Of a stretch of 64,000 nt of DNA, positions 2,954 through 62,100 are shown piece after piece; within the stretch, counting starts at the first letter, position 1; each line of letters starts with the position of its first letter. Under the pieces are notes generated by a model. That model saw only the letters and a list, made by a program, of their open reading frames with translations, ran no database searches and had not been told where the DNA came from. This DNA comes from a candidate division WOR-1 bacterium RIFOXYB2_FULL_45_9 (GTDB lineage Bacteria > Margulisbacteria > WOR-1 > O2-12-FULL-45-9 > XYB2-FULL-48-7): the NCBI GenBank assembly GCA_001771575.1, contig MEUD01000001.1, positions 603,277 to 667,276 of the forward strand, in the 5' to 3' direction. Made by a program: the position numbers and the translations under genes.

Positions 2954-4189
2954 ATGAAAAAAACAATTATTCTGTTACTGATCACTCTCTTCTTCTGCCA
3001 AAATGTTTTTGCTCTTTACGGGACCAGGCCGATGGGGATGGGAAGCGCGTTTACCGCGGTCGCCGATGACGCCAACGCCCCCTACTGGAACCCGGCCGGT
3101 CTGGCCCTAAACCCGGAAGTTTCGATCACCGGGTCCACTAAATTAAATAACCGCAATACCTGGGTTGGCGATAACTTACTTAGCTTAAAGATGTGCTATG
3201 AAACCAAACTGAACCCTTTTCAGTGGCTCCTGGGGATCGGGATCGCTTCGCTGGTCGCTTATGAAGGGGCCTCTTATCTGGGAGAAAAAGGGATCCTGAA
3301 AACCGGCTGGGGACGTAACGTCCAAAAAACCAAACGGGGCGAGTCGATGGCCGAACAGGTGACCGAGGTCGGATCGGAACAGGCGGTCAGCCTCCGCCAG
3401 ATCGGCATGGGAGCAATTAAAGACGCCCTGGGAGTTTCGTCGGGGGGAGCAAAAGAAACGCCCGCCGTCCAACCAGCTCCTCCCGTCCGCCCGGTAGTGA
3501 TCAGGCCGCGCTATTACGTTTATCCGGCTCATTCCTGGTATCACCCTCGACCCAATCGCCGCGATTATTGGGAACCGGTTGAATATGAAGAAGTGGCGGA
3601 AGAAATCAACCCAACGAAAGCACAATTCGCCCTTGGTCTCGGCTGGATTAACGACAATAATATCCCTCTGGACGAAAAATCGAACCAATTTACGATCGGG
3701 GTCGCTTCCGGTTTTGAAGAGCGGGTGGCGATCGGCGCCAACGTCAATCTCTATGACAAGACGATAATTTCGTCCAACGTCCGCGGCTTTGGCGGCGACA
3801 TTGACCTTGGCTTTATCGGCAAACCGGTCGAATATATTTCTTTCGGTCTGGCGACCAAAGGGATCCTGACTTCCGATATCTACTGGCAGAACGGGGCCAG
3901 GACCCGCTACGAAATGCTGGTCAACGCCGGACTCGCCGTCAAACCGCTCCCCTTCTTTACCGTCGCGGCCGACGCCCATAATATTTTCAATCAGAACAGT
4001 CAGCAAGCGACTATGCATTACGGCGCGGAAGTCTCGCTCATCCCCGGGCTCCTCCTCCGCGGCGGTTTGGACGACGGGAACAAGACCGCCGGGCTAACCC
4101 TGGTCTTTGGCAATCTTTTGATCGACTACGCGATCCTGGGGGGGACGTACAACCGGACCCAGATGATCGGCGGAAGCTGGAGGTTCTAG
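2954..4189 (+). CDS. PorV/TraF-like outer-membrane beta-barrel protein
   Basis: A 411-residue protein with a clear signal peptide (MKKTIILLLITLFFCQNVFA). The mature start carries the family hallmark of PorV/UPF0164-type barrels: GTRPMGMGSAFTAVADD followed by YWNPAGLA (about residues 23-51). The C-terminal half alternates short polar and hydrophobic stretches as beta-strands do and ends in WRF, with an aromatic last residue as many outer-membrane barrels have. A proline- and tyrosine-rich insert (about residues 172-210) is unusual and probably an extracellular or periplasmic loop. AAGGGA precedes the ATG by 8 bases. The stop codon shares one base with the GTG of the next gene, so this leads an operon with the hydrolase and the dehydrogenase. 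Its cargo or ligand is unknown. Confidence 0.75.
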   Translation: MKKTIILLLITLFFCQNVFALYGTRPMGMGSAFTAVADDANAPYWNPAGLALNPEVSITGSTKLNNRNTWVGDNLLSLKMCYETKLNPFQWLLGIGIASLVAYEGASYLGEKGILKTGWGRNVQKTKRGESMAEQVTEVGSEQAVSLRQIGMGAIKDALGVSSGGAKETPAVQPAPPVRPVVIRPRYYVYPAHSWYHPRPNRRDYWEPVEYEEVAEEINPTKAQFALGLGWINDNNIPLDEKSNQFTIGVASGFEERVAIGANVNLYDKTIISSNVRGFGGDIDLGFIGKPVEYISFGLATKGILTSDIYWQNGARTRYEMLVNAGLAVKPLPFFTVAADAHNIFNQNSQQATMHYGAEVSLIPGLLLRGGLDDGNKTAGLTLVFGNLLIDYAILGGTYNRTQMIGGSWRF

Positions 4190-27976: not shown

Positions 27977-28027
27977 ATTATATCACGCTCGTTTTTCGTT
28001 GACAAAAAAGGGGGGCTAACCTAAAAT
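27977..28027. promoter_or_regulatory. Overlapping divergent promoters for coaE and the barrel gene
   Basis: Plus strand: TTGACA (27999-28004), 17 bases, TAAAAT (28022-28027). Minus strand: TTGTCA (28005-28000), 17 bases, TATAAT (27982-27977). The two -35 boxes cover the same seven base pairs, so both cannot be used at once. The plus -10 ends 7 bases before ATG 28035 and the minus -10 ends 9 bases before ATG 27967, which predicts leaderless or near-leaderless messages in both directions. Confidence 0.75.
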
Positions 28028-28034
28028 GCCAATA

Positions 28035-29954
28035 ATGAAGTTGGGGAGGATTTTATTCCCGGTCTGCTTTATTTTTTGCCTTTCGACCGCTCTTGGCGCG
28101 GCTGAAGTCGCTTTCCCATACGGCCGCTTCAGCTTAAAGCTCCCCCCGCTGGAAAATCCTTATCCGGGCTTTGGCGGATACTTTACCACTATCTCTCTTG
28201 GGCAAAAAACCGCACTCTGGAACCCCGCTTCGCTCGCCAAGCTAAAGCTTTCCGAGTTTTCCTGGGACACCTTTATCGGAGCGGGACACTCCAGCGGGAC
28301 CAAAACCTCCCGGGTCGATGAACCGAGCGGCTCGATCGACTGGAGCGGCGACCCGGCCAGCACCGCCCGGATAAATTACGGGATCTATTTTCGCGAAGAA
28401 GCGGCTATCCCGGCCAACGCGCCGACGGAAGCGGTTGATATCAACAGCCGGGTTGACTCGCAAACCTCGGGTTCGGGCCTTAATTTTTCCGCCGCCCAAA
28501 GGGTGAACGACTGGCTGGTGGTTGGTTTTTCGACCAGGAACCCGATTGACGCCGACGCCGACATTGGCGGAATTTTCCCGGCGACCGGAAAAATATTCGC
28601 CGACCTCCACGGCTTTCGCTCCGATGACCTGCTCGTTAAAAGCGACGGCGTCCTGCAGTATACCTTCCACTCCGGCGGCGTGATCACGACCATGGAAACG
28701 ACCTCTCCCGTCTGGATCGGCTTCCTCTCCCAGGAGGTCTCGGTACCGGTCCAAAACCTGATCGAACTGCGAAATAACCTGAAAATTGACGCCCCGTTCG
28801 TCGGGACGATCGCCGCCAGCCACCAAAAGTTCCACGCCGGCCTCAATTATATTCCCATTTCCGCTTCCGGCAGTATCAACAATGACGTTCGGGCGGTCGT
28901 CCCGGAAAGCGCTACCGATCAGTATTTGTACGTCCCTAACTTTGACCCAAACGATCCCAACGCGGGAGGAAACTGGATGGTTGACCCTGACCTTTACGGG
29001 ACCTCCGCCGGATACTCTAAAAAACAGATCACCCTCCCCTCCGGAGAGCTGGTGGCCAACGCCAAGTACCGCGGTTTTTACCAGGGAAATACCAGCCGTT
29101 TTGACCTCGGGATGATGTACGACGTCAATGAATGGATCACCGTCGGACTGATGCTGGAAAATCTAACCGGCTCCAAGGTCACCCTTCAGGGGAGCGGACT
29201 ATCGGCATACTACTCCTACCGCCAGGTCAACACCGCCGAGGCCGAGACCTTATTTCAACCGGGGAGCTCCAGCAACTGGAGCCCGATCTCCAACAACTGG
29301 TTCACCTCTTATGAGGCGGGAGCGACCAAGCTGATGCTGGAAGAAGAAAAAACCATCTCCCTCCCAAAAAGGCTCCGCTATGGGGTCGCGTTCAAACGTC
29401 CTTTTCTGATCGCTCTTGATTGGGAACAGAACCACTCCCCGATAACCTTAAAGCTCTCGGACAATCCCCAGGACGTGGTCATAAGCGACTTGAACTTTCT
29501 CCACCTCGGGATAGAAAGCCAGCTCTTCTCAATGCCGGTCATCATTAGAAGTGGTTTGACCTGGCTGTTCAAACCTTCGGTCAGCGGTTTGACGGCCGAC
29601 CAGCAAAAAGGGGTCAATGACGCCTTTTCCATGCTTGGCGGGCTTCCGGTAAAGTTTGACCTGGGGACCACCTTCAACATGTGGGATTATAAGGTTGACG
29701 GGAACTGCGGCATCAGCGCCCTTTCCTTGATCAACGCCATGCAGTTTGACAGCACCAGTTTAAATCTTGGAAAGACGGTCTTTGCCGGCCTTGCCGTCGC
29801 GAGAGACCCGTGGACGATCGCTTATCAAGCCGAGTTCGACCCGCTGTCGACCGCGGCCGCCTATGGGGTCAAAACCAAAGACGCCGGCGAAAGGAAGTTT
29901 GAAATGTCGGATGTCAGGCTGGTCCAAACCATCGGGTTAACGTACAGGTTTTAA
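28035..29954 (+). CDS. Outer-membrane beta-barrel protein, FadL/PorV-like
   Basis: A 639-residue exported protein. The signal peptide is MKLGRILFPVCFIFCLSTALGAA. The mature N-terminus has the barrel-family stretch FGGYFTTISLGQKTALWNPASLA. The rest alternates strand-forming segments, with inserts rich in Gly, Ser and Thr, and ends in an aromatic residue (TYRF). ATG 28035 is used rather than ATG 28026, which lies inside the -10 box of the only visible promoter. Two bases separate it from the next gene, which is a secreted protein with a C-terminal sorting-type domain. A role as transport or assembly partner for that protein is inference. Confidence 0.72.
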   Translation: MKLGRILFPVCFIFCLSTALGAAEVAFPYGRFSLKLPPLENPYPGFGGYFTTISLGQKTALWNPASLAKLKLSEFSWDTFIGAGHSSGTKTSRVDEPSGSIDWSGDPASTARINYGIYFREEAAIPANAPTEAVDINSRVDSQTSGSGLNFSAAQRVNDWLVVGFSTRNPIDADADIGGIFPATGKIFADLHGFRSDDLLVKSDGVLQYTFHSGGVITTMETTSPVWIGFLSQEVSVPVQNLIELRNNLKIDAPFVGTIAASHQKFHAGLNYIPISASGSINNDVRAVVPESATDQYLYVPNFDPNDPNAGGNWMVDPDLYGTSAGYSKKQITLPSGELVANAKYRGFYQGNTSRFDLGMMYDVNEWITVGLMLENLTGSKVTLQGSGLSAYYSYRQVNTAEAETLFQPGSSSNWSPISNNWFTSYEAGATKLMLEEEKTISLPKRLRYGVAFKRPFLIALDWEQNHSPITLKLSDNPQDVVISDLNFLHLGIESQLFSMPVIIRSGLTWLFKPSVSGLTADQQKGVNDAFSMLGGLPVKFDLGTTFNMWDYKVDGNCGISALSLINAMQFDSTSLNLGKTVFAGLAVARDPWTIAYQAEFDPLSTAAAYGVKTKDAGERKFEMSDVRLVQTIGLTYRF

Positions 29955-29956
29955 CC

Positions 29957-32554
29957 ATGAAAAATATTTTAATAGCTTTATTTTGCTTATTTGCCGTCTC
30001 TTCGGCCTTTGCCGCCATCGTCATAGTCAACGAAGAATTGACCAGCGTCGAGGATAACTCGTTCATTGTCACCTGGACAACGACCGACGAAGCGGCCGCG
30101 ACCGCCATTGAGTACGGAATTAGCGGTTACACCAACACCGCGACGGTCAGCGGGAACACCAATTATCACTGGTGCCAGGTCACCGGACTTCTTCCCAACA
30201 CCACTTACCAATACCGGGTCAAATCGGGGAGCGCGTACGGTCCTCCCCGTTTGGTCACGACCCTTAGCAGGCCGACGGGGGAATACCTTTTTAGTTTTGC
30301 TATCCTGACCGATCCCCGCTACGCCGAAGGACGCGCCCCAGACGCCAGCGGCGCCCGGGGGCTCCCATATTCCCTTTGCGACGAGATCATCGCCTCCAGT
30401 GTTTCTGATATTAACGCCCTACCCAACCGTCCCGCCTTTATCGTGCTGGGAGGGAACCAGGTCGATATTTGGACGAACAACTCCGGCGACCAGGCCAAGA
30501 ACGAGTTCAAGGCAAAATTTGCCGCGTTTACCGGCGCCTCCGATCTTGGGAATCCGAACTATCGGCTTAGCCCCGTCCCCGGCTATTACGATAAACTGGC
30601 CGATTACTCGACCGACTGGGTCACCGACAATCTCAATCCCCTGCGAACCAACACGACCCAGTACTCCACGACCGATGCCGGGACCGATTCGATCTACAAT
30701 TACAGCTTTAGTTATAAAAATTATAATTTTGTTTTTGCCGACTCGGTCACCGCGGCCGGCGGCGGCCATCTTAATACCAACGCGGTCCGGGACCTGATCA
30801 CCGCCGAAGCCAGAAAGACCTTTATCTTCTCCAGTTATCCGGCATACGATCTGGCGGGAGTTGTGATCGACGGCGAGACCAAGCGGGATTACCCGATCGA
30901 CCTGCCGACGGTCGAAGGAGCGGCGGCGATCGACAACAGCGTCGATTTCCGCGCCGCGCTGGAAGGCCTGACTTACACGGTCGGCACGCAAAGCTATCCC
31001 CTGACCGCGGCGGTCATCTCCGGACATATCGGGGATAATTACAAGCGCGATATTCACGGGATCTCTTACGTCCGCCAGGGACCGGCGGTCCAGTATCCGA
31101 CCGGCTATTCCGTCTACCGGGTCTATTCCAACGGCTACACCAAGACCTTTTATAAAACTTCCGGTCGGGACACGGCCGGAAAACCCTATTATGAACGCGC
31201 CCGCGACCTGATCGCCGACTCCGAAGGAGTTATCAAAGAGCTGTTGACCTCGTTCTGGCTTGGATCAAACAGCATGCGGAACTTCAGCTACTCTTATCCT
31301 TACGCCCCGGGGATCGCACCGGGCATGGTCTCCAGCACGCCGACCAGCGGCGCGTACGCCGTCCCTTTGAACCAGCCTTTCGTCGTTACTTTCAACAAGC
31401 GAATGTCCAGCGCCCCTGCTTCCAGCTGGATCTATGTCACACCGCCGGTCATTAAAGGGACCCCGACCATTGACGACAGCGGACGGGTAATCACCTTCCC
31501 CCACTCCGGATTGGATGCTGGACGGACCTACACCGTGACCCTGATGAAAACAGATGTCCGGGACGAAGGCGGCGGGAGCATGGACGCGGACCAATCATTT
31601 TATTTCTACACGACCGGCAGTGTAAACGACTACACCCCGCCGGCCGTTTCCATTTTGAATCCGCCGGCTGATAATATCACCACCGATATTTTACCGACCT
31701 TTCTCGGTATCGCGACCGACGAAGCGGGGGTCGGCCGCGTTGATTTCCGGATCGACGGCGGGACCTGGCAGTCTGCCCAGCCGGCCGATGGGATGTTTAA
31801 TTCCAGAGAAGAGACTTTTATTATGACCTCTCCGGAAAAACTTCCCAAAAAGGAGCACCTGCTTGAGATCCGGGCGTATGACTCGATCGGCAACACCGCG
31901 ACTTCAGAGTTCACCGCTTACGCCTTTATGGTGGCTGATGAAAAACCGAGGATCTCACTCCTGATCGACGGCATTGTTCCCCTTCCCGGCGATCCGATAG
32001 GTCTCCTGCCGCAATTAACCGCCAGGGCGGTCTCGATAAATCCAATAACTTCCGGATCGGTCAACATTGACGGCCAGAAGAAGGGCTTAACCTATGTCCT
32101 TGCCGATTCGTACTATGCCGCCACCTTTACTCCTGACGATCCGCTAAGCAACGGGATCCACTCCATTACCATTGAAGCGTTCGATTCGATCGGCCAGGGG
32201 GCGACTTACGAGATCACGCCGCTCTACGTTGAAGCCGATAAAGGCCCGGCGATCCTTGGCGCCCCCCTGACCTATCCCAATCCTTTTGATCCGAGAAGCG
32301 GCAACGCGGCGATCACTTACCTTTTGACCCGCTCTTCAAATATTACTTTGACCATCCATAACCTCTCCGGCGCCCTGCTCGCCAAAAAGGTTTATCTCTC
32401 CGGCAACTCGGGAGGCAGGGCCGGCTATAACGAGGTCGCCTGGGATGGCCGGTCAGACGGCGGGGTTGAGCTGGGGAACGGGATCTATATCGTCTTGATC
32501 CTTGCCGACGGCAAAGTTTTAGCCAGGGGAAAGATCACGGTGTATAAGAAATGA
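29957..32554 (+). CDS. Secreted multidomain protein: PAP-like N-terminus, Ig domains, FlgD/type-9-like C-terminal domain
   Basis: An 865-residue secreted protein. Order: signal peptide 1-19; a fibronectin-III/purple-acid-phosphatase N-terminal domain (about 22-105, LLPNTTYQYRVKSG); a calcineurin-like fold region (about 108-430); a Big_5-type Ig domain (about 455-555, TPTSGAYAVPLNQPFVVTFN); one or two further Ig-like domains (560-765); and a C-terminal domain from YPNPFDPRSG (773) to the end with LSGNSGGRAGYNEVAWDG and NGIYIVLI. The phosphatase motifs are degenerate: the GDxxD position reads GGNQVD and the GNHE position reads VPGYYD, so it is probably not catalytic. The C-terminal domain resembles the FlgD-Ig/type 9 sorting domains. 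The ATGA overlap with the following barrel-SLH gene suggests paired function. Confidence 0.8.
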   Translation: MKNILIALFCLFAVSSAFAAIVIVNEELTSVEDNSFIVTWTTTDEAAATAIEYGISGYTNTATVSGNTNYHWCQVTGLLPNTTYQYRVKSGSAYGPPRLVTTLSRPTGEYLFSFAILTDPRYAEGRAPDASGARGLPYSLCDEIIASSVSDINALPNRPAFIVLGGNQVDIWTNNSGDQAKNEFKAKFAAFTGASDLGNPNYRLSPVPGYYDKLADYSTDWVTDNLNPLRTNTTQYSTTDAGTDSIYNYSFSYKNYNFVFADSVTAAGGGHLNTNAVRDLITAEARKTFIFSSYPAYDLAGVVIDGETKRDYPIDLPTVEGAAAIDNSVDFRAALEGLTYTVGTQSYPLTAAVISGHIGDNYKRDIHGISYVRQGPAVQYPTGYSVYRVYSNGYTKTFYKTSGRDTAGKPYYERARDLIADSEGVIKELLTSFWLGSNSMRNFSYSYPYAPGIAPGMVSSTPTSGAYAVPLNQPFVVTFNKRMSSAPASSWIYVTPPVIKGTPTIDDSGRVITFPHSGLDAGRTYTVTLMKTDVRDEGGGSMDADQSFYFYTTGSVNDYTPPAVSILNPPADNITTDILPTFLGIATDEAGVGRVDFRIDGGTWQSAQPADGMFNSREETFIMTSPEKLPKKEHLLEIRAYDSIGNTATSEFTAYAFMVADEKPRISLLIDGIVPLPGDPIGLLPQLTARAVSINPITSGSVNIDGQKKGLTYVLADSYYAATFTPDDPLSNGIHSITIEAFDSIGQGATYEITPLYVEADKGPAILGAPLTYPNPFDPRSGNAAITYLLTRSSNITLTIHNLSGALLAKKVYLSGNSGGRAGYNEVAWDGRSDGGVELGNGIYIVLILADGKVLARGKITVYKK

Positions 32555-34515
32555 TAAGGATAGGCAGGGAAAGACTATGTCTGCTATTGATAATTTGTTA
32601 TGTTTTAATTTCCCCTGCTTTTGCCGGTTCCTCGCTGGACCCGTCAAGCGTTATCTATAACGCCCGTCAGCTCGGCATGGGAGGAGTCTCCCTTGGCCTG
32701 ACCACCGATGGAAGCGATATTTTTCTCAATCCTTCGGCTTTGAGCCGGATCGATTTTCCTCAATTCACCGCGACCGCCAGACGTCTGGCGCTGGATGAGA
32801 CCCAATACAGCCTCGCCGGGTGGGCTTTCCCGACCCAGTATGGGGTGTTTGGACTCGGGTTTACGGGCCTGAATACCGGCGGATCGATCCCGACCATGCG
32901 CGACCCAGCAACCGGCCGCGTGATCCAAAACCCAAGCCAGGAGGTCGGTAGTTTTGACAACAGCGCGCTGGTCTTTTCCTGGGCCCGGGACCTGGACGCG
33001 CCGGACAATATCGCCATCGGAGGGAGCCTAAAGTTAATCACCCAAACTTTGGCCGGCGGCACGAGCGACCGGGCAACCGCCCTCGCGCTTGATCTGGGGG
33101 CGACCTATTTATATCGCCCCTGGCTTAAATTTTCCGGAAACCTGCAAAATATTTTGGGAGCCGGGCTAAAGTGGAGCGGCGGCGAAGACAAGCTTGGCGG
33201 TTATTATAAGTTCAACGGCGCGGTCAACATCCTTGGAGATGAAAAAAGCTCCCTTCAGAAACACGATCAAACACTGGTCGCCGGCCTTGGTGTTGACCTG
33301 CCAAACGCCGCGCCGGGGAACGCACTTCTTTTTCATACCGGGGTCGAATACGAACCGCAAAAGAACATCACCCTCCGGGCCGGCCTCAACCAGGAAGAAG
33401 GGAGCACCGGATTGACTATGGGAGTCGGGCTGTATAACAGCGGGTATCGGTTTGACTACGCTTTTGTCCAGCGGCCCAACCTGCCGGGAGACAACCCGCA
33501 TTATTTCTCGCTTTCGTACGTCGGAGAAAAGACCCTGACCACCTCGATCAAACCGACCAGAAAGATCCCCTTCCTCAAATTAAATTATCCCCCCGACCGC
33601 CTGCTGACCAACCGGTTCTATCTGGTCGTCTCCGGCGAAGGTTATGTCACCAAACTGCTGGAGAAGCAAAGCGTTTGGAAGATCGCATCCTTTGGTACCA
33701 CGGTCGAGGTCCAGCAGTTATCAACAATCGAGCCGTTCAGCAAGGTCTATGTGAACAATGTCCTGCTTAAGGACCCTTCGTCGATCGAGGCCAACCAGAT
33801 CCTTTCGGTCGGCCGCAATGTCACGACCTTGATCGCGCAGACCACCCACGAAAACATCGATGAGACCAGGATCATCACCGCCGAGAGCCTGACCCGGCAG
33901 GCGGTGGTCCTCCGCTTCAACCCTTTTCGCGACACCCCAATGAGCTACTGGGCGATCGAGCCGATCGCGCTGGCGGTCACACTGGAAATGGTCAAGGGGT
34001 ATCCCGACGGCAAGTTTTATCCGGACAAAGGGATCACCAGGGCGGAGCTGGTCACCCTCCTCGTCAGGACGCTGGACAAAGCGGAGGCGACCTTGATCCC
34101 GTACGGCGAAAACAAGATCTTTAAAGATGTTTTCCCCAAGCACTGGGCGGCAAAAGAGATCAACTACGGGAGCGTGATCAGGTATATCACCGGCTATCCG
34201 GACGGGACCTTCAAGCCGAACAAGGTCTTAACCCGCGCAGAAGGGATCACGATCCTGGCCCGTTACGGGAATTTGGAAGAAGAACGATTCTATGCCGGCT
34301 CCCCGTTTCCGGACCTGCCAAAGGATTTTTGGGCAAATAAAAACATCCTATCAGCCAAAAAGGCCGGATTGCTTAAATATTTAGAGGGGAAGGAATTTAA
34401 ACCAAAAGCCGCATTCACCAGGGCGGAAGCGTGCGAGGTCCTCTACCGGGTGCCGACCATCAGTCGGGCGGTCGACTATTTCTGGCAGACCGGCAAGGTC
34501 TCTCTGTCGCAATAG
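32551..34515 (+). CDS. PorV-like outer-membrane barrel fused to C-terminal SLH domains
   Basis: A 654-residue protein with signal peptide 1-25. Residues 28-60 hold the PorV/UPF0164 hallmark NARQLGMGGVSLGLTTDGSD followed by FLNPSALS, opening a barrel of about 300 residues. A beta-rich linker (about 335-455) follows. Three S-layer-homology repeats fill 465-650; each has a GYPDG.F.P or YLEGKEFKP turn followed by TRAE (GYPDGKFYPDKGITRAE, GYPDGTFKPNKVLTRAE, then the divergent YLEGKEFKPKAAFTRAE). SLH domains bind cell-wall polymers, so the barrel should be tethered to the peptidoglycan. The start overlaps the upstream cargo-type gene by 4 bp; the last 56 bases overlap convergent comEC. Confidence 0.85.
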   Translation: MIRIGRERLCLLLIICYVLISPAFAGSSLDPSSVIYNARQLGMGGVSLGLTTDGSDIFLNPSALSRIDFPQFTATARRLALDETQYSLAGWAFPTQYGVFGLGFTGLNTGGSIPTMRDPATGRVIQNPSQEVGSFDNSALVFSWARDLDAPDNIAIGGSLKLITQTLAGGTSDRATALALDLGATYLYRPWLKFSGNLQNILGAGLKWSGGEDKLGGYYKFNGAVNILGDEKSSLQKHDQTLVAGLGVDLPNAAPGNALLFHTGVEYEPQKNITLRAGLNQEEGSTGLTMGVGLYNSGYRFDYAFVQRPNLPGDNPHYFSLSYVGEKTLTTSIKPTRKIPFLKLNYPPDRLLTNRFYLVVSGEGYVTKLLEKQSVWKIASFGTTVEVQQLSTIEPFSKVYVNNVLLKDPSSIEANQILSVGRNVTTLIAQTTHENIDETRIITAESLTRQAVVLRFNPFRDTPMSYWAIEPIALAVTLEMVKGYPDGKFYPDKGITRAELVTLLVRTLDKAEATLIPYGENKIFKDVFPKHWAAKEINYGSVIRYITGYPDGTFKPNKVLTRAEGITILARYGNLEEERFYAGSPFPDLPKDFWANKNILSAKKAGLLKYLEGKEFKPKAAFTRAEACEVLYRVPTISRAVDYFWQTGKVSLSQ

Positions 34516-36715
34516 AATAACCCCGGCCATCGCTCCTGATCGTCACCGCCCCGACATCTTTGGTCATGAGCAGCCCAAGCGGCGCGAGCTTAGCCAACGC
34601 TTTTTTTGAGGGATGGCCGTATCGATTGCGTTTTCCGACCGAGATCACCGCTTCTTTTGGGGAAACCGCTGCCAGGAACTCGTCGGAAGTTGAGGTCGCG
34701 CTCCCGTGGTGCCCAACTTTCAAAATGGTCGACCGGAGGTTTTCTCCCCGACCAAGCAAGCGCGCTTCGCTCTGGTCGTCCAGGTCACCGGTAAATAAAA
34801 ACGAGGTCGCGCCGTAAGCGAGCCGAAGGACAATCGAATTGCCGTTCACCGTTCCGTCAAGATCGCTGGGCCATAAGATCTTAGCGTTGACCTCCCCCAA
34901 GTTAAGGGTCATTCCTACCCGGCCGACCACCCGCCTGATCTTGTTCAAAGCGATCAATTCTTGAAAACGCCGGTAGGCGGGAGAATTTAAAACCTCTCCA
35001 TTATCGATGAGATTATCTACTTTTACCGACCGGAGAACCTCGTTAAGTCCGCCGATATGATCAGCATGTGGATGGGTAGCAATCACCAGGTCTAGTTTAT
35101 TGACCCCCTGTTTTCGCAGGAAAGGGAGGAGTACCATTTTGCCGATCCGGTCATACCCCCGCCCCTTATCACTCTCCTCACCGCCGCCGTCGATCAATAT
35201 TTTTCGGCCGTTTGGGCATTCAATAAAGGCGGCATCCCCCTGTCCGACATCAATAAACGTCACCACCAACCCCTTTTCACCGCCAATGAAAAGAGGGAGA
35301 AAGAAAACAATAATAAATAAAAAAACCGCCCGTTTGATCCCCTCCCGCGTCGCAAGCCTTTTGATCAGATTTAGGAGAACCAGATAATAAACGGCGAGCC
35401 AGATGAACGGCACCTGCCTAACATAAGCGGAACCGGCCGGAAGGGCGGCGATCGCTTTAGCGATCAGGTCGAGGAAAGCCAATCCCAGCCAGAGGGTCCC
35501 TCCCAGGACTTTAGCCAGCGGTAAAAAAATAAAGCCGATCATCGCGGTCGAAAACCCAAAAACGACCAGCGTTTCGATCCAGGGGAGAACAATAAAGTTG
35601 GATATTATCCCGGCCAAAGAGAACTGGTTAAAATTATAAACAATGAGCGGTGTCGTCGCCAGAAGGGGGCCGATCGATAAAGCAAAAAGCTCTCGCCCGG
35701 GAATTTTTTCCGGTAAACTTTCGGTAAGCGGCGGGACCAGAAAAAAAAGGGACCAGGTCGCCAGGAAAGAGAGCTGGAAGCCGAGATCAAAGAGATAATT
35801 GGGATCGAACAATAAAAGAATAAGCGCCGAAAGAGCAAGAGCGGTAGAAAATTCTTTTTCCCGATCAAACAGCTGGCCGACCAGAGCAATCTCCCCCATT
35901 ATAGCCGCTCGAAGGATCGACGCCCCGCCGCCAGTTACCACAACCAGCAAAAGATTAAATATCGTAGCGACGGCAACGCTAAGCCAGACAGGGAAGCGGC
36001 ATATTTTAGCTAACGATAGGCAAACCCCGATCAAAATCGAAACCTGTGTACCGGAAACGACCAGCAGATGGATAAGCCCGGCCTTGCGATACTCCTCTTT
36101 TACTTCAGGGTCCAGGGGCGAAACCGAACTTCCCAGGAGAACGCTCCCCAAAAGAGAGGCCTCTTTAAGCGGCAGGATCTGGACCAATACGTCATTAAAC
36201 CGGTCGCTAAAATAAAACGCCACTTTATTCCACCAATTCCCGCCGCTCCCCAGTTTCCGGCAGTGGGTCACTGAAAAAAGCAGTAACTTCTCGGGCCGGC
36301 TTAAGCGGCCGCGCAATTCAAGCTTATCCCCGTATTCAATCGGTTTCCCCGCTCGCAAAAAAACCAAAATATCCTGCCTGATCTTATTTTCATTCGCTCT
36401 TATTACCGTAAACGGAAAATAGACCTTTTCGCCGCTGACATTTGGTTTCCCGGCAACTTCTCCCTGAACCGTCAAAAAATCAGTTTCCACGAAACAGCCA
36501 AGTGGATCGGCTTGAGGCGCGCGCGATTGCAACAAGCCAAAAAGCAAAAAAATAACCAGCAACAACCGACCTATCTTGATCTTGATAATTATCGCGATGA
36601 CTGCTAACCCGACAAATAGTAACAACAAATAAAACGGCAGTGGAGGCGGAATATATTGGCCCAAGGCAATCCCCAGCGCGTAAGCGGCGGTTAAAAGGAC
36701 TATCGGTGAGAGCAT
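34460..36715 (-). CDS. comEC: DNA internalisation channel ComEC/Rec2
   Basis: Inner-membrane channel that carries single-stranded DNA into the cytoplasm in natural transformation. The 751-residue form has an N-terminal membrane pair and OB-like domain, a multi-helix competence domain (about 200-490, with LLVVSGTQVSILIG), and a C-terminal metallo-beta-lactamase domain (THPHADHIGG with His548, His550, Asp552, His553; LFTGDLD). All metal ligands are kept, so it may be nuclease-active. ATG 36715, one base after the comEA stop, is preferred over the upstream codon at 36763. Its last 18 codons run into the convergent barrel-SLH gene. Confidence 0.92.
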   Translation of the reverse strand: MLSPIVLLTAAYALGIALGQYIPPPLPFYLLLLFVGLAVIAIIIKIKIGRLLLVIFLLFGLLQSRAPQADPLGCFVETDFLTVQGEVAGKPNVSGEKVYFPFTVIRANENKIRQDILVFLRAGKPIEYGDKLELRGRLSRPEKLLLFSVTHCRKLGSGGNWWNKVAFYFSDRFNDVLVQILPLKEASLLGSVLLGSSVSPLDPEVKEEYRKAGLIHLLVVSGTQVSILIGVCLSLAKICRFPVWLSVAVATIFNLLLVVVTGGGASILRAAIMGEIALVGQLFDREKEFSTALALSALILLLFDPNYLFDLGFQLSFLATWSLFFLVPPLTESLPEKIPGRELFALSIGPLLATTPLIVYNFNQFSLAGIISNFIVLPWIETLVVFGFSTAMIGFIFLPLAKVLGGTLWLGLAFLDLIAKAIAALPAGSAYVRQVPFIWLAVYYLVLLNLIKRLATREGIKRAVFLFIIVFFLPLFIGGEKGLVVTFIDVGQGDAAFIECPNGRKILIDGGGEESDKGRGYDRIGKMVLLPFLRKQGVNKLDLVIATHPHADHIGGLNEVLRSVKVDNLIDNGEVLNSPAYRRFQELIALNKIRRVVGRVGMTLNLGEVNAKILWPSDLDGTVNGNSIVLRLAYGATSFLFTGDLDDQSEARLLGRGENLRSTILKVGHHGSATSTSDEFLAAVSPKEAVISVGKRNRYGHPSKKALAKLAPLGLLMTKDVGAVTIRSDGRGYSIATERPCRSARNSRPPD

Positions 36716-36716
36716 C

Positions 36717-50920: not shown

Positions 50921-53152
50921 TTAATAACCGATGTTCCAGTCGCGGAGGTTGCGGATATTATCGGAGAAGTAATGGGTCTTGGCGACCATTTCGGCTACTT
51001 CAACCCTGGTCAATCGTCTGTCCGGTTCAAATCGATTACCTTCCAGGTAGCTCAAAAGCCCAGCTTCTTTCGCGGCGCTAATCTCTTTGATCGACCAATG
51101 CCGTCCGGGAATGTCGGAAAAAGGCAGTTCCAGAAGCCGCGGTTCGCCAAGCTTGGCAAATCTGGCAATTACCGAAACCCCTTCCGCCCGGGTAATGCTC
51201 CCTTTTGGCCGAAAAGTTTTGTCCGGATATCCCCTGATCAATCCCTCTTGAGCTCCCTTATCGATATACACAACGGCCCAATGGTTCAACGGCACATCGT
51301 TAAATAGCTGTTTGTTCTTGGGGGTTTCTATTTCTTCTCCGGTAGCTTTAGCGATCAAAGCCTTTTCTTCAGCCTCAGTAATCGCCTGCTCCGGCCTAAA
51401 TTCCCCATCTGCGAATAAGGTCATCAAGCCGTTATTAACCGCCGCCGAGATATAAGGGGCCAGTGGATGGCTTTTACTAACGTCCGGGAAAACATCGTCG
51501 TCAACCGTCGGGAAAGAAAGATCGTCGGTTTTGACCAGCCATTTGGCATAGTCAGCTCGTGTCAGCCCTTTTAACGGGTCGTAATTTTTGCCAACTTCGA
51601 CCACGCCAAGAAAGATCAGTTCCTGAATTCTTTTACGCTGGGAAGGTAAAAGATCGTTCGGAGACGACATTGTCTTGACCAGCAAGGTCGCTATTTCCGC
51701 CCGGGCAATGTTCCCTTCAGGCCGGAACGAGCCATCGGGATAGCCGGTCAAGATGTTCTCCATCGCCAGGTAAGCAATTGGGAAAACCGCCCAATAATTA
51801 ACGGGAACGTCAACAAAGCTCTTGAGGCTCAAGAGCCTGATCTTTTCGGCCGCCAGCAAACGATCCTTAGCGTCAAAGCCGGCAATATTTAAGGAATTTT
51901 TCCCGTATTTTAACGGCAGGGTCAGGTTAAAGCGCCCATCGTCTCCGACCACTACCTCCAGACTATTGACCGTCACCCGGCGGATCAGCCAGTTATCAAC
52001 CTCTCCCTTAACGGTAACCTCCTGCGTGTAGAGGACTGTTTTATCGGCGGGAAAAATGGAAAAGTTCTTGACTTCTACCGCCTCGACCGACGGCTTACCG
52101 CGGTCCAGGCCATATGTGATCGAGAAATAGTGGGTATCGTTGGCCGCGACCTGGTTATACTGATGGAAAGCGTAATCAAAACGGAAATTTCCGTAATACA
52201 AGCCGACCCCCAGGGTCAAATTGTTGGTAAACTCGATCTCCGTTCCGTTATTGCGGCCAACGTAATCCTGATCGATCCCCGCCCGCAGGTCAAGAAAATC
52301 GATCGGCGACCATTCGATCCCGTTGTGAAAAAGGCTCGGCAGACTGGAATGGGTCGGGTAGTAATCGTAATCAAAATTGAGAGAGAGTTCGTGGTCTCCC
52401 AGCCGGCGCCACCCCTGGCGTCCCAGAACCTTGAAACTAAAACCGGTCTTGAGAAGAGCGGGAAAAGATTCTTCCACGCCGCTGTCCCACTTCATCTTTC
52501 CCCCCATGGAAAAAGGAAGGACATTCTGCAGGACCATACCGGCCTTGAATACCGGGTTGGGAGTGTAATGCAGTCCCAGATCGACTTCGTTGCCGTAAGC
52601 GCTCCCCCCGACGATCCCGGGACCGGTCAACCGGGCAAAATAAAACTTGAGAGTGCCGCCGGCGACGATATTGTCCAATACCTTGAGGTCAAATAAACCC
52701 TTGAGCGGCTTTCCCCAGGAAAGAAGGAGGGTCTGATTACCGTAAGAAAAGCTGGATCCTTCAGTCGACGACGGGACGATCCTGATCCCGTCCTGAACTT
52801 CAGTAGTCACTCCGATGGCGGTAAAGCCGATACTACTGCTGACCAGGCCGATCCCAAATGTGCCGTAGCTGGTCGGGTAAGCGGCGCCAAAATTAAGGTA
52901 ATCGTATTCATTGATAAATTTCCCGGCCATGGTCGTCAATTGCCAGTTGTTAAGATACCCAAGAGAGGCCGGATTACTGAATATCCCCAGCAGGTCATCG
53001 GCCAAGCCGACATAAGCCTTCCCCATCCCCAGAGTTCTCGCCCCAACTCCAATATAAGTGGGATCATTGGCGACCGCGGTTTGGGCGGAAACCGAATGAG
53101 ACAAAATAAACAGGACAATTATTATGCCAACAATTCGCAATTTCATTTTCAT
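50921..53152 (-). CDS. PorV-like outer-membrane barrel fused to C-terminal SLH domains (second copy)
   Basis: A 743-residue paralogue of the protein at 32551. The signal peptide is about residues 1-23. The PorV hallmark is [19 protein letters not shown] followed by FSNPASLG (about 35-63). The barrel runs to about 350 and ends in HYFSITYG, close to HYFSLSYV in the paralogue. An Ig-like linker (about 360-440) is followed by SLH repeats starting near 446, 555, 617 and 678; two have GYPD(G/K).F.P...ITRAE or IARAE. The start is one base after the stop of the giant surface protein, so the pair should be co-translated. SLH binding to the wall would anchor the barrel. Confidence 0.85.
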
Positions 53153-53153
53153 T

Positions 53154-56100
53154 TTAATTATACACTACCAGGTAAGCTTTCCCAATCGGATTGTAATCGC
53201 CGATCACCCGAATAACATAAATGCCGTTGGACAGGCGACTGCCGGTATCGTCCCGGGCCGCTTCGATCTTGACCTGGTTGAAGCCGGCCTTTCCTCCATT
53301 GGTGCCGGACAAATAAAGCCGGGTGATGACCTGCTGGCCGCCGCCGCTGATCAGCATGATCTGCACCTGGGCGTCCTTGGTCAGGTTGTACGACACTCCA
53401 AAAGATTTATCCATTGAGCTGGAGAAAGGCATCGGGAAGACGGTAGTCTTTCCGCCGACAACTCCGACCGCTCCGCCGGCGACCGCCACTTTCAAGTTAT
53501 CGATCGTCAAGCCGGCGTAACCGTTAGATCGATCTCGCCCTTCTGCCGCCAATGAGTGGGTCTTGACCGACTCATCGGCCAGATCTTCGGTCGGCTCCGC
53601 CGAGAACTTGAGGCGGTTAACAGTCGCCTCAACTACGGTTGTTGCCAGCTCGACCCCGTCGAGCGAAAACTTACGGTACGATTGGTCGATCGCGATATTA
53701 TCGGTCAACGTCACCTCAAACTTGGGCCGTTTGCTGATGTAGTCGCCGCTTTCCAGTGTCACCCCGGCGATCGTCACGTGGATCTTCGGCAATGATTGGT
53801 CGGTTTTAACATAGGCGACAGGGACATAGGTCTGCTCCTCGCCCAGAGTAAAGACCCCACTGGTCCCTGATCCGGTGTTCCCGGCCAGATCGACCGCTTC
53901 CACCCTGATCATCGCATTATCCGAATAGAGAGCCGGCAGGGTCCAATTATAGCTCCCGCTATTGGCGATCCCGGCGGCGATCGCCGACCAGCTTGATCCG
54001 CCATTAACCGATAGGGAAATAGTAATGGGGGTCGGGCCAAACCCGGCACTATCGGTCGCCGTCCATAAAATTGTGTAGGCCGATCCGCTAACAATGGCCC
54101 CGGTGCTTGGGGCAATTACGGAAACAGCAGGGAGAGAAGTATCGACCGTAAAGCCCCAGGTCAATGAAGCGGCTCCCCAGTTCCCCGCGTTATCCTCGGC
54201 CCGAACGCTCCAGCTGTGGGCGGCGTCGGTCAATGTGCCGGTCAAGGTATGAGTGGTCACCGCCCCTAATGTGGCGGCAATCGTTCCATCGACGGTTATT
54301 TCGTAACGAGCGACCCCGCTGGTCGGATCGACCGCCACGTTCCAGACAAAGGTCGGCTGATTGTCGTTGATGCTTGAGCCGCTGGCCGGAGTAATAAGGC
54401 TTGGGGGGACCGGTCCCGCGGTATCAATGATGATGCTATCGCTCCCGACCGCCGACTCGCTGGAGGCAACATCCATAACTTTGGCGTAAACCGTCCGGCT
54501 TCCATCACCGGCTGTCAGGGTGAACTGGCTCGCTGTTTCATAGGTGACCCAGCCGGTGTCATTCCCGCTCCCGTCAAAGAGATTATTCCCGGAAAGACGC
54601 ATCAAGACGACATCGGGATCGGCCGCCGTTACCTCAATACTGACAATCAGCTCCTTCGAATAGACCGTGCTTCCGCTGGTCCTATCCTTAAGCAAGACAG
54701 TCGGCGCCGCCGGACCAAAATTAACGATAATGCTGTCGGTCACAACCGCGCTTTCGTTGGAAGCGGAGTCTCTTACTTTATAGTGGGCTTCTCTGGTCCC
54801 CTCACCCGCCGCCAGGGTAAAGTCATAAGACGACCGATAAGCGATCCACCCGGTTGATCCTAGCGTAAAGGCGGCGTCGCGAGCAATGAGCATGGAGACC
54901 GCGTCGGCGCTTACGCCAAACGCTTCCAGGGTCACCAGCGAGGCCGATGAATAAACCGGGCTTCCGGTGATCCGGTCAAAGAGTGTAATGTGGTCGACTT
55001 CCGGTGAAACGGTATCAATAGTAATACCGTCATTTACAGTATTGCTTTCGTTGGAAGCGGCGTCGCGGACCTTGTAATAGACAGTCCGCGAACCTTCGCC
55101 GGCGGTAAATGTATATTGGGTGTTCGCCAGGTAAGTTATCCAACCGGTCGAATTTTCCGTAAAGGCGGCATCCTGGGCGATCAACATAGCAACCGCGTCG
55201 GCGCTCACCCCGGACGCTTCCAGCGATACCGTCAGTGAGCTGGAGTAAGCCGGGTTTCCGGTCACGCGGTCTTTCAGCAGGATACTGCCGACCGTCGGCG
55301 AAGCGGTATCTATCAGAATAGCATCGCTAATCACCTGGCTCTCGTTGGAGACGGCGTCGCGGACCTGGTAGTAAGCGGTCCGGGAGCCATCACCGGCGGT
55401 AAAGGTGTATTCGGTCGTCGCCAGGTAAGTTATCCAACCGGTCGAATTATCGGTAAAGCCGGCGTCCTGGGCGATCCGCATGGAGACCGCGTCGGCGCTC
55501 ACCCCGAACGCTTCCAGCGATACCGTCAGATCGCGAGAAAAGACGATACTGCCGGTCTGCCGGTCAGAAAGGGTAATATGATCGACTTCAGGAGAAGTAG
55601 CGTCAACTTGAATGCTGTCATTCACCGCCGCGCTTTCGTTGGAAGCGGCGTCGCGGACCTGGTAATAAGCGGTCCGGGAGCCATCACCGGCGGTAAAGGT
55701 GTATTCGGTCGTCGCCAGGTAAGTTATCCAACCGGTCGAATTATCGGTAAAGCCGGCGTCCTGGGCGATCCGCATCGAGACCGCGTCAGCGCTCACCCCG
55801 AACGCTTCCAGCGATACCGTCAGTTTATTGGTTTGGACCGTGCTTCCGGTCGTTCTGTCAAACAGGGTAATATGGTCTACTTCAGGGGTCGTCGTATCAA
55901 TTGTAATACTGTCGCTGACAATATTGCTTTCGTTGGAGGCGGTGTCGCGGACCTGGTAGTAAGCGGTCCGGGAGCCATCACCGGCGGTAAAGGTGTATTC
56001 GGTCGTCGCCAGGTAAGTTATCCAACCGGTCGAATTATCGGTAAAGCCGGCGTCCTGGGCGATCCGCATGGAGACCGCGTCGGCACTTACCCCGAACGCT

Positions 56101-59100
56101 TCCAGCGATACCGTCAGATCGCGGGAATAGGCAGAGCTCCCATTACCGCGATCCTTCAAAAGGATACTGCCGACCGTCGGCGAAGCAGTATCTATCAGTA
56201 TGCCGTCGCTAACGACATTGCTTTCATCGGAGCTGATGTTCCGCGCTTTAAAATACGCGGTCCGCGAGCCGTCACCGGCGGTAAAGGTATATTCGGTCGT
56301 CGCGGCATAGGTGATCCACCCGGTCGCGTTCTCCGAAAATCCGGCATTCTGCGCGATGTTCATCGCCGCCGGCTCACCGGTCACGCCAAACACTTCCAGG
56401 GAGACAGTCAACTGGTTGGTAATAACCTGGCTGGCAGTGACCCGGTCGGACAGTACGATGAAACCGATCTCCGGCGAAGCGCTCGTGTAGATCGTAAAGT
56501 TCGCCCCGCTCATGTCGCTGGCAAAGAAGCCGACCTGGTCGACCGCTTCAATACTGACACGGGAGCCGGTACTGCTGACGGATGGGATCGTCCAGATGTA
56601 ACCTCCGTCATTAGGCTCCTGGCTGGCAATCAAGGTCCAGCTTTCGCCGGTATCGAGAGAATAGCGGAGAGTGATCGGGCCGGAGCCAAAGCCAACTTCG
56701 TCGGTCGCGATCCAGGTGATCTCATAGGTCGCGCCGCCGGTCAAGTTTTCACCACCGCCGGGCAGGATAAGGGTGACTTCAGGTGTTGTGGAATCGATTG
56801 AAAATACCCCTGATTCTCCGGTCCCGGTATTATGGTAAACGCAATTGTCATTGATGTTGACCCTGATCCTAACCTCACTGCTGGTCAGGCCAATCGGCGT
56901 CGTCCAGGAATATGGCGAAATAACCGCCGCGTCGGCGGTGATCAGATTCGGATAGGTCAAACCGCTGTCGATTGAATAATATATCGCCAGAGAATTTGGT
57001 TGGATCCCTGATTCATCGGTCACTTCAAAAGAAATATCATGGACTGCGTCGCCAGGGAAGACTTCGCCGCTGGCCGGGGCTTCGACCGTAATCAGCGGCG
57101 GCGTGGTATCGGAAATGGTAATAATCACGTTATCGGTTGAATCGTAGCCGATCAACCCGACCCGATTTTCCGCCCCGACTTTGATCCTACCATTAGCTGT
57201 CTCTAAAGTCGCCGGCACCGACCAGGAGTAAGTCCCGTCGTTTGGCTCACTGCTGGCGATCTGAGTCCAGGTTTCGCCGGTGTCGAGTGAATAATACAGG
57301 CTTATCGGGTTGGTCTTGAAGCCGCATTCTTCGGTCGCGACCCATTGGATATCATAAGCAGAGCCGGATGGGATAACTTCGGCGCTTATCGGCCTGGTGA
57401 TCGTCACTTCCGGCGAGGTCGAATCGATGATAAAGGTCACATTCGATTCGTCCGATCCGGTGTTTTGCAGGTCGCCGTTCGCCTGGACAGAGACCCTGAC
57501 CTTGACCTCTGTCGTCGAGATCAGGGGAGTAGTCCACGAATAAGGAGCGGAGACCGATTCCTGGGTAGCGACCGTTATCCAGGCGGTCCCTTCACCGGTC
57601 GTGTAATAAATTCTTGCTGAATCGGCCAAAATCCCTTCCCTGTTGCTGGCGGCAAAGACCACTTCGTAGCTTACTCCGCCGCGCCAATCTTCTCCCCCGT
57701 TGGGAGCTTCGATCGTCACCAAAGGAAGAGACGGATCGGCAAACCAGTCGTAGGCCCCCCGATCGGTCCCGGCCGGTGTCCCGCTCGCCCGGTTGGGTGA
57801 AATGTCTAATAAATGATAGTCGTTTGTTGCCTGGTTCCAAAAGCCGGGCTCAACGGAAATATCACCGATATCGGGAGAGACCCCATCCCAGTTGGTCGCC
57901 CAATTATAAACGTCATTGTAGCTTGGGGTAATAACTGAATCGCCATTCCAAGAAACCCCGGTCGAATACCCACGGCCATACATGATGTTGTTCTTAAACA
58001 GAAGTACACTGGTCAACCCGCCGGTTGAACCGGTACTATAAAAGCCTCTGGAATATTGTGCTCCAGCGATCGTATTCCGATTGATCACGCCAGGTAAGCC
58101 GGAAGGAAAATTATAATTGTGGACCGACAGATTGTAATTAAAACTATTGATCACATTTCGATAAATATTAAGGGCAGAAGGTTTAAAAACGTAAAGCCCG
58201 TAAGAGACGGAGATGCCGGAGGAAATCTCACCGGAGATTAAATTCCCCTCGATCGTCACCATACAAGTGCCGGACCCAAGTGTGCTATTAATTTCGACCG
58301 CTGAAGTATTGTTCTTTATTAAATAAGTAATCTCATTGTGCTTAATATAGTTCTTCCATAAGCCTTGGGAAATAATCCGGCCGGTCAGTTTTACCCCTTC
58401 CAGGGTGGTAAAAGAATGGAGATATATCGTCCCGGTGATCCGATTGTCATTGACCGTCCCAACATCAGTATCCTGAAGAGCTCCCCGAACGTGTCGTTCA
58501 ACTCCAAAATGGAAATTGCTCGCCCATTCGCCATTCCCCGTGGAGTAATTTCCGTTACCGATATTAATATTATGTATCGTGTAACGGTTCGCTTTGCTCA
58601 ACGTCCGCCAGGCGGTCGCCCAGGAAAGGCCGTCTCCTGTCGCGTCACTCCCCTCGCCACTGACAAAGGATTCCAAAATGTACGGCGAATACCCTTCACC
58701 GGTCCCATTATAAGCGCCGATATTGACCCCACCGATCCCGGTCCCAATACATGGCGAATCATAATAAAGCCGGTAATCACCATTCCACGGCTCGACAAAA
58801 CGAGGGTAGAGTGAGATTGTGTTTGATATGCTATAACCGCTACCGCCATAAATATCAATTCCGTTACGCCAGATAAGGTTGGTATCAAACCGCTCTTTCC
58901 CGCCGCTGTAGGGGGCATAAATACCGTACCCTTCAACCGTCCCGTCAAGCGCGGCAGCATAACAAAAGATATTGTTAGTCACTTCAGCGGTGGCATCATC
59001 AAAAGTGTCAACTTCAATCCCGTAAGGGGCATGAACAACAGTGTTTCGATCAATTTTAGAAGTAGCGTTAGTTACACCGGAAGTATCACCATCATTACCA

Positions 59101-62100
59101 TTAAACACACTGAACCCGTCGATTAAGTTCCGATAAAAATGATAACCCTGGCCGCCATTGTCCCATAATCCGCCGGTCAAACCAAACGCGTATCCGCCGG
59201 GGCTCAAGCTGGTATTGAGAATCTCATTAGCTTCGATAGTGATCAGTGATCCCTTGCGCAGAAGGACAGCGTTTATATCTCCACCGGTAATTCGACTGTT
59301 GCGCAGATAACTATTATTTCCACGAATTTGCACAAGCCAATCGCCATAATCGTAAATGCCGTTGATCATTGAGAGTCCCTCAATAGTCGAATTGCGATCG
59401 ATATGCAGGAGATCATAAACGCTTGAATTAGCATTAATTATTGAAACGTCGCGTCCCGCCCCAACAATATGACGGTTATAGCCAAATTTAATCGGGAAGA
59501 CCTCGCCTAACGCGGCGGTATATTGCCCGCCACCGACATTTATTTTCCGCTCGGTATATTTGGCCGCCTGGGTCAGGGTCCGCCACGGGCTCCCAATTGA
59601 GCCATCGCCGGACGTGTCGGCGCCGCCGCCGTCAATATATGATTCGGTACGGTAGGGAGAGCCTGCTTCTCCTGCACCGTCATAAGCCCCAATGTTAACC
59701 CCGCCGTCACCTCTGCCGATACACGGCGAAGTGGAATAAAGCCGAAAATCGTTATTCCAGGGGGCGACAAAATGAGGAGGGGCGCTGATCGCGCCGGTGC
59801 CGGGCAACACCCCTTCTTCATATTCCGTTTCATTCTGCCAGACATTATTATAAGAACAGGTGAAATCAGCCCCACCTGATAGCTTATTGAGCCCCATCGA
59901 CCCATAATCGGTCCCGGAGCTATAATGCCAGGTATAATAAATGTCGCCGTCAAGCCGCGGCTGGTTCATAATAATATTGTTCGTAACATACGCCCCCGCG
60001 GTCGCATAAGAGCTTATTCCATCGTGGTTCATAACCAAAGTATTCCGGTTAATTGTCCCGCCGTAATTTACGCCGCCAATTGTAATACCATCGCCATACT
60101 CTCTAATTTCGTTCTTATAAATATTCCAGCCGCTTATTGAATCGTCAAAATAATTGTAAATGCCAACCCCTCTGCCGGCCGGTTTATTATAAGAGATCTC
60201 CTCGGCGGAATTAACTATAATATTGCCGCTGATATAAGAATAATCGTCGCAAACTGAAAGGGCGGTATCCCGGGTTTGCGTAGTAAACCGGTTGTTTATG
60301 ACTGAAGCATATTTCCCATTTACCACAATAGTCCCGCCAAAAGAGAGATATACCGTTCCCCAGAACGGCGACCAACCGTAAAGAGCACTCCCCCCTTCTC
60401 CCAACGCGTACAGGTGCATTCCTTCAACAGTTGTGTAGCTCCCCATGGTAAAGGCGGCGGTGTTGGCCAACGCCTCTATTGTCACTGTGTCGCGGCTGGC
60501 GCCGGAAATATGCATCCCCTGACGCAAATTGATCGGGGTGATATCTCCGGCCGCCTGGTTGTAGGTCCCGGCCAGGACATTAATTTTGGTAAGGGTAAAC
60601 CGGAGAGCTTTGCTGATGCTCCGCCAAGGGCTCCCAATCGAACCGTCACCGGTCGTATCATTGCCGCCCCCGCTGACATAGGAATAATATTGATATGGCG
60701 ACCCCGGGAGTCCGGCTCCATCATAGGCGCCAATGTTCACTCCCCCCTCCCCCTGGGCGATACAGGGGGAAGTCCAGGTCCCGGTCGACGCGTAGAGGCG
60801 AAAATCCTGGATATCATAATCAACAAACCCTGGACATTCAGACCTATTGGTCGCCCCATAAGAAAACAACCCGCCATAATTTGCCCCGTTGTTCCAGATA
60901 TCATTGTAGCCATTGATCAGACCGGCTCCGCCATTTAATCCAATGCTATCGCTGGCGGCGACCGCGTCGAGCGACGGCTGGTTGACCATGATATTATTTA
61001 TAACCGTTCCGGCAACAGCGTAAACGCCGTACCTAAATCTAACGATCGTGTTGCGATTAATATAAGCGTTCGCCGCCCTGACACCGTAATTGGTATAACC
61101 ATAGATCGCCGTGGTCTGACGGTAAATGGTATTCCCCTCGATCGTCGCGTATCCCGGACTGGCCAGCACGCCGTAGGTATAACCTTCGGCATTAATAATA
61201 TTCCGCGCCAGGGTAACTCCCTCAAATGAGGTCGTCACCACCGCCGTCCCGCCATTCCCCTTCAGGAAGAAGCCCTCCAGCCAGGCGGACGATTCCAGGC
61301 TGACTGCCGCGCCGGAGCTCCCGCTCTCTTCGATCGTCGCCTGTCCGGTAACCGTCGAATAGACGCTCCTGCCGGAGATGGTGATCGGGAAAATTTCTCC
61401 CGCGGCGGCGTTATAAGTCCCCGGAGCGGCATAGGCCGGTTTGCCGCTCGCCGCCGCGGTCGCCGCGTAAGTTAAGGTCTTAAAAGGCCCGTTCAGTCCG
61501 CTCCCAACCTCCGAAGTCAAACCGTTGTAACTGTTACTCCCGGTAGTCGGATTGACGTAATACGCCGCTTCCGGAGTAACCGCGAAGGTCCCTGATTCCT
61601 CGGTCACCACATTGCTCCTGGTGGCGACGATCTTGACCCTGGCGGTCTCGGTCGCGACTTCGGTGACAAACCAGGGGAAAATATTATCGTCCGCTTCGCC
61701 TGTTACCAGATCGGTATAGGTCGCTCCGTTATCAAACGAATAATAGATATCAATTCGGTCGGCGGTCCCCGGAGAAGCTTCCCAGGTAATATTATGCCAG
61801 GTCCCTCTCTGCCAGATGTTCCCGGCAAGAGGAGCGCCAATGGTCAGGGAGATCGGGTGATCGTAGTAATAAGCTCCCATATCGGCCCGGGTCGTGTCGG
61901 GATCGTTGTACTGCGGATCGGGGTCGCCGGTATCGATACAAGTGGATGCCGCCTGCAAATGATAATCATCGCCGCCGGCATCGACAAAAAGCGGATCGTC
62001 AAAGATCGTCCCGGTCCCGCCGCCGACCGTCCCTTCATAAGTAACGTCAACGGCATACAGGTCGTTATAAGTAGAATTGACGGTCCCGCCGGTCTGGACG

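Follow-up and report, generated by a model that had tools for sequence, protein, structure and literature searches.

Why should the gene of a secreted protein with a type 9-like C-terminal domain run straight into the gene of a PorV-like outer-membrane barrel that carries its own wall-binding module? The locus that raises this question lies in the window (the whole stretch of 64,000 nucleotides that was analysed) of a candidate division WOR-1 bacterium whose genome is one contig of 1.67 Mb. A sequence-only reading had already offered an answer: the barrel would capture the C-terminal sorting domain (CTD) of the protein encoded immediately upstream and hold it at a wall-anchored site, as a display system standing on its own. 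The answer reached here retains the putative capture and discards the isolation: the pair is probably one unit of a system for type-9-like secretion and anchoring in the WOR-1/Saganbacteria class of Margulisiibacteriota, in which the barrel would bind the CTD and the cargo would be secreted.

The cargo, its carrier and their identities

The pair belongs to a conserved three-gene operon of the window:

28026..29954, plus strand: outer-membrane-barrel-like protein of 642 aa, opening the operon; a very distant PorV/FadL-type relative
29957..32554, plus strand: cargo of 865 aa, with a signal-peptide-like N-terminus, a purple-acid-phosphatase N-type/fn3 domain, Ig-like domains and a CTD
32273..32539, plus strand: the CTD, of the type 9, type A kind (cargo residues 773-861; TIGR04183)
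32551..34515, plus strand: PorV-family barrel with three C-terminal SLH repeats, 654 aa (NF033709, PF00395)
32656..33519, plus strand: PorV/PorQ-family barrel portion of the same protein (residues 36-323; NF033709, and the genome's own PorV profile against the PDB)
33922..34431, plus strand: its three SLH repeats (residues about 458-627; PF00395)

The cargo frame (29957-32554) and the PorV-SLH frame (32551-34515) overlap by 4 bp, as the sequence-only reading had it, and 2 bp separate the cargo gene from the 642-aa barrel gene before it. The FlgD/type-9-like CTD that had been placed from residue 773 is borne out by TIGR04183, whose score of 23.0 bits over residues 773-861 equals the curated cut-off; the FlgD_ig match at the cargo C-terminus falls short of its own. 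The PorV-hallmark barrel and its three SLH repeats likewise stand: the former matches NF033709, the NCBIfam PorV/PorQ model, with 83.1 bits (E 2.7e-23; cut-off 90), and the latter match PF00395 (E 7e-28) and, in the PDB, the Sap SLH (3pyw) and the SLH proteins 8bym/8bys/8bz2. The match of the 642-aa protein to the genome's own PorV profile is weak (30 bits), and structure modelling of PorV-SLH, tried with two sequences, reached a pLDDT of 29.

Profiles built from the genome's own proteins (14 barrels for PorV, 11 domains for the CTD) were searched against 177,635 PDB sequences, and comparison with solved T9SS structures upholds both identities. The best match of the PorV profile is Flavobacterium johnsoniae PorV in the SprA translocon (6h3i_F, E 7.4e-12); the best matches of the CTD profile are the CTD of PorU (6za2, 2.7e-7) and PorZ (5m11, 2.6e-5), with FlgD behind them. 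Type A CTDs have a near-invariant Lys near the C-terminus (PMC10994853), and 48 of 58 CTDs here have Lys at the corresponding position. Among T9SS parts, a PorV-family carrier is thus present (three PorV paralogues of the genome exceed the NF033709 cut-off, the window's own barrel reaching 83 of 90 bits), and so, by TIGR04183 and these PDB matches, is a type A CTD on substrates.

Further type 9-like parts in the window and the genome

The sequence-only reading had found no other type 9 component in the window. This was mistaken, for the window holds a second CTD-PorV-SLH pair and a third PorV-family gene:

2954..4189, plus strand: divergent PorV-family barrel of 411 aa, without SLH and without an adjacent CTD gene
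50921..53152, minus strand: PorV-family barrel of 743 aa with an SLH tail, downstream partner of the giant protein below and with it the window's second CTD-PorV pair
53154..63998, minus strand: C-terminal 3614 aa of a secreted giant of 9118 aa (beta-helix, Ig), which continues beyond the window
53157-53444, minus strand: divergent CTD of the giant, of the same kind as the cargo CTD

Nor does the first pair stand alone in the genome, which encodes a SprA-like translocon (described below) and 14 PorV-family genes, several of them SLH-free; for this reason the system is more readily seen as an offshoot of type 9 secretion than as a display system with no relation to it. SLH is clear in six of the 14, a seventh (L034) has a weak SLH match, and eight of the 14 lie directly 3' of a gene that ends in the same kind of CTD. 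One of these CTD partners, at 108 aa, is scarcely more than a signal peptide and a CTD. TIGR04183, applied to the whole genome, puts four CTDs over its cut-off. Two giant cargos of 4412 and 3395 aa (G000:C1:801096 and 724313; L030 and L029) have very similar CTDs, and each is followed by a PorV of 308-311 aa without SLH; the 4412-aa protein also contains several internal FlgD_ig/CTD-like domains.

CTD then PorV: a rule of the class

PorV-family genes were present in all 38 genomes of the class and phylum that were searched (8-22 matches in class members). Pairing was counted in eight contiguous genomes of the class (Margulisiibacteriota: WOR-1/Saganbacteria) by comparing each listed PorV match (107 loci) with each C-terminal CTD match (117). 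A same-strand PorV gene lies immediately downstream of 61 of the 117 CTD genes, against 0.25 expected from random placement; PorV precedes CTD three times, and adjacency on opposite strands does not occur. The median spacing from CTD gene to PorV gene is -1 bp, and the frames overlap in 35 of 58 distinct pairs. Chance adjacency is ruled out by these counts, and restriction of the pair to one genome is ruled out by the class-wide pairing together with the conserved operon. CTD-PorV pairs are systematic and conserved among relatives, and the window pair is one case of a class-wide CTD-then-PorV rule. Cognate pairing is not universal, since roughly half the CTD genes, and 48 of the 107 PorV genes, lack a partner. 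Is each CTD also fitted to its own PorV? Co-divergence was considered as a sign of such specificity and rejected: the correlation between CTD and PorV divergence, r 0.54 overall, falls to r 0.07 among the divergent paralogues of one genome, and therefore reflects only co-inheritance of the pair.

The other seven contiguous genomes, and G001 from the same genus, all have an orthologue of the window's PorV-SLH (36-83% identity) with a CTD gene in front of it; directly upstream of that CTD gene, at least six of them also encode an orthologue of the 642-aa barrel. The cargo orthologues are at least 835 aa long in four genomes (the source genome included) and 224-336 aa long in five; these short cargos keep merely the last ~205-310 residues (Ig and CTD), and the PorV-SLH is retained. 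What the window operon conserves is CTD and carrier, with the passenger lost in five genomes.

The tail of the carrier

SLH is found in 59 of 109 PorV proteins, C-terminal to the barrel in every one of the 59, and 57 of these SLH tails have the [TS]RxE motif. Among the Pfam-checked tails, one has LysM in place of SLH, one has SLH plus three LysM and two have TPR (these fusions to PorV barrels are at L192:1702-2910, L195:286-2898, L224 and L225). CsaB exceeds its cut-off in eight of eight genomes. The termini of outer-membrane barrels face the periplasm, and LysM is a peptidoglycan binder. Taken with the ubiquity of CsaB in these eight genomes, these two facts are the grounds on which the PorV tail is best read, from sequence and by analogy, as a periplasmic anchor that would bind peptidoglycan or its pyruvylated polymer. 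Exposure of the SLH repeats on the cell exterior is rejected on barrel topology and because LysM occupies the same place. The sequence-only reading had spoken of a wall-anchored site; since SLH follows a barrel whose termini should be periplasmic, the repeats are predicted to be periplasmic too and would anchor from the inside, not on an outer wall.

Might the tether be the whole story? Diderm Terrabacteria attach their outer membrane mainly through SLH-bearing barrels (PMC10628300), the genome encodes further SLH-containing proteins, and the 48 PorV genes that have no CTD partner also suit a view in which PorV-SLH proteins are tethers or porins of the OmpM kind and the secreted proteins encoded upstream are co-expressed with them and do not bind. 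This is unlikely in view of the company that these barrels keep: the partner is a CTD-class protein in a fixed order (61 cases against 3), SLH-free carriers are paired even more often than the others (31 of 45 short ORFs against 28 of 62 long ones), the barrel is of the PorV type and no porin, and the cargo keeps its CTD while losing its passenger.

A SprA-like translocon candidate and its subtilase neighbour

Through what pore would such cargos leave? The search of the full genome for sov/sprA brought up a conserved SprA-like barrel gene, outside the window and below the TIGR04189 cut-off, which has a CTD gene for a neighbour:

G000:C1:1230067-1234137, minus strand: SprA-like barrel of 1357 aa (L090), with a partial TIGR04189 match
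L055:5850-8060, convergent with L090: CTD-bearing subtilase adjoining the SprA-like gene

TIGR04189 matches the 1357-aa protein in three partial stretches with 40.7 bits (cut-off 200 bits), and also gives a weak match in Thermus. All 20 class genomes searched have a full-length orthologue of 1326-1452 aa, and six further genomes of the phylum encode distant relatives that are longer (26 of 26 overall). For residues 22-1221 of a named SprA-like orthologue, AlphaFold2 gave a model with pLDDT 80 and pTM 0.46 (24 sequences), and the top four PDB matches that Foldseek returned for it are SprA chains (E 1.4e-15 to 4.2e-10; the next match 6.6e-7). The TM-scores against these chains are low (0.23-0.28), hence the label "SprA-like" rather than proven SprA. 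Pfam SprA_N found no match, and none in the controls either, and a SprA-like profile found no match among the PDB sequences. There is also a smaller second SprA-like protein (L054:5610-8600; 996 aa, TIGR04189 27.7 bits); N-terminal TIGR04189 matches like its own occur in most class genomes, in frames mostly of 850-1080 aa.

The neighbouring CTD gene is convergent with the SprA-like gene in 18 of 18 class loci (subtilase Ser motif in 17), and stands beside it in all 22 named loci with enough flank (Ser motif in 20, one truncated). One may guess that this CTD-bearing subtilase is itself a cargo or else takes over the function of the PorU sortase. No C25 (PorU sortase) peptidase was found in six class genomes, by a search that was positive in another class; GldM was not found in the source genome and five class genomes, by a search that lacked a valid positive control. 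The absence of C25 is the better evidence of the two, because the same search found C25 elsewhere. The C25 (gingipain/PorU-type) domain of the other class of the phylum lies at G034:C19:23121-24188, within a 3856-aa frame.

Is this, then, an ordinary, complete type 9 system transferred from Bacteroidota, with its motor and sortase missed through divergence? SprA-, PorV- and CTD-like parts are all there, one genome of another class does have a C25 peptidase, and the GldM search was uncontrolled. Yet the SprA-like protein, at 1326-1452 aa, compares with about 2300 for SprA, and its conservation through the class, with longer forms in the rest of the phylum, suggests old vertical descent; C25 is missing from six class genomes by a search that can find it; and it is a conserved CTD-bearing subtilase that adjoins the SprA-like gene instead. 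We regard such a transfer as improbable.

A proposed mechanism

The favoured reading, a type-9-like unit of secretion and anchoring, can be set out as a series of steps: 1) The signal peptide would bring the cargo into the periplasm. 2) The cargo would cross the outer membrane through the compact SprA-like barrel, whose gene is found elsewhere in the genome and whose function is presumptive. 3) The PorV-family barrel encoded directly downstream, the observed partner, would take up the CTD of the cargo; a PorV-SLH would collect it at the SprA-like pore. 4) The periplasmic SLH tail of the carrier would bind a pyruvylated, peptidoglycan-linked polymer in whose synthesis CsaB assists. Once loaded, the PorV-SLH carrier would keep the passenger at the cell surface from a fixed, wall-tethered position, and its tie to the wall would make it a permanent surface anchor. 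Paired carriers without an anchor may serve mobile or released cargos.

An arrangement in which the barrel binds the CTD at its periplasmic face instead, as a receptor or plug partner, and the cargo stays in the periplasm, is very improbable: the SLH/LysM/TPR tails do put the carrier to work on the periplasmic face as well and the role of SprA is a presumed one, but the cargos resemble adhesins (beta-helix, Ig, TIG, carbohydrate-binding) and are as long as 9118 aa, which is typical of surface proteins, and in solved T9SS complexes it is the extracellular loops of PorV that bind the CTD (PMC10994853).

The secretion-and-anchoring reading can be taken a step further, although here it is tentative, possible rather than probable: a Terrabacteria-side phylum may possess a sister branch of type 9 that either predates the Bacteroidota form or is independent of it, and that works without the known motor and sortase. 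Its pore would be the compact SprA-like protein, a subtilase would stand in for PorU, and for many cargos a private PorV, tethered to the wall, would be carrier and final surface anchor in one.

Precedents and implications

Bacteroidota employ one PorV for type A CTDs, and their type B substrates use a PorP/SprF encoded directly downstream (PMC12618676); some type B substrates are believed to be anchored to the wall by PorP-PorE (PMC12618676, PMC9143113). The F. johnsoniae pairs SprB-SprF and Fjoh_3952-Fjoh_3951 (PMC12618676) resemble the present ones in having the carrier gene directly 3' of the CTD substrate gene, and also in the multiple dedicated carriers per genome and their FadL-type barrels. 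There, however, a type B CTD (TIGR04131) goes with PorP/SprF, and here a type A CTD (TIGR04183) goes with PorV/PorQ, a family that provides one general carrier in Bacteroidota and many paralogues, cargo-paired in part, in these genomes. PorE-PorP-PG1035 of Porphyromonas gingivalis (PMC9143113) is likewise a peptidoglycan-linked barrel carrier holding a CTD protein, but the link is made by a distinct protein, a lipoprotein that bears an OmpA-like domain, whereas here SLH and/or LysM is fused to the barrel. Capture of the preceding gene's CTD, to be held at a wall-anchored site, would match the PorE-PorP-PG1035 and SprB-SprF precedents, which have experimental support (PMC9143113, PMC12618676), and on the best reading by analogy the wall-tethered PorV carrier would be a one-protein counterpart of the PorP-PorE-substrate complex of Bacteroidota.

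The SprA-PorV translocon (6h3i, 8gl6; PMC10994853) supplies the best structural and PDB-profile matches; it differs in that the SprA-like protein here is little over half the size, the PorV paralogues are many, and neither GldM (the search being without a valid control) nor C25 PorU was found. The OmpM/SlpA SLH-barrel tethers of Terrabacteria (PMC10628300, PMC9388160), known from Deinococcus-Thermus and Cyanobacteria (PMC10628300), also have SLH on the periplasmic side of the barrel and probably bind a pyruvylated polymer too; OmpM has its SLH N-terminal and its barrel is a porin, unlike the C-terminal SLH on a PorV-type barrel beside a CTD gene. The combination found here is that of a type-A-like CTD, a PorV-type carrier, one carrier per cargo when paired, and a fused anchor in the role of PorE.

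The T9SS has been described as exclusive to Bacteroidota (PMC12618676) and its genes as "absent from other bacterial phyla", that is, outside the FCB group (PMC11285876). A literature search (subscription papers and preprints not covered) found nothing linking Margulisbacteria, WOR-1 or Saganbacteria to type IX secretion, PorV or secretion systems, and nothing joining PorV with SLH in the protein sense. If the present reading is true, a set of SprA-like, PorV and CTD proteins in a phylum from the neighbourhood of Cyanobacteria would move the origin of the T9SS back, and would provide a reduced version of it for asking which parts are essential. Wall fixation via PorP-PorE remains in part a proposal; carriers fused to SLH/LysM would give a direct view of a secreted protein fixed to the wall via an outer-membrane barrel.

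The passenger and the convergent neighbours

Residues about 100-420 of the cargo, after the purple-acid-phosphatase N domain, look metallophosphatase-like by eye, with altered metal-binding motifs (LTDPR, LGGNQVD); Pfam Metallophos has no match in the cargo (29957-32554). Convergent with the window pair are ComEC-like and ComEA-like genes (34460-37265, minus strand), named by eye from the sequence, and the stop of the ComEC-like gene overlaps the 3' end of the PorV-SLH gene (32551-34515) by 56 bp.
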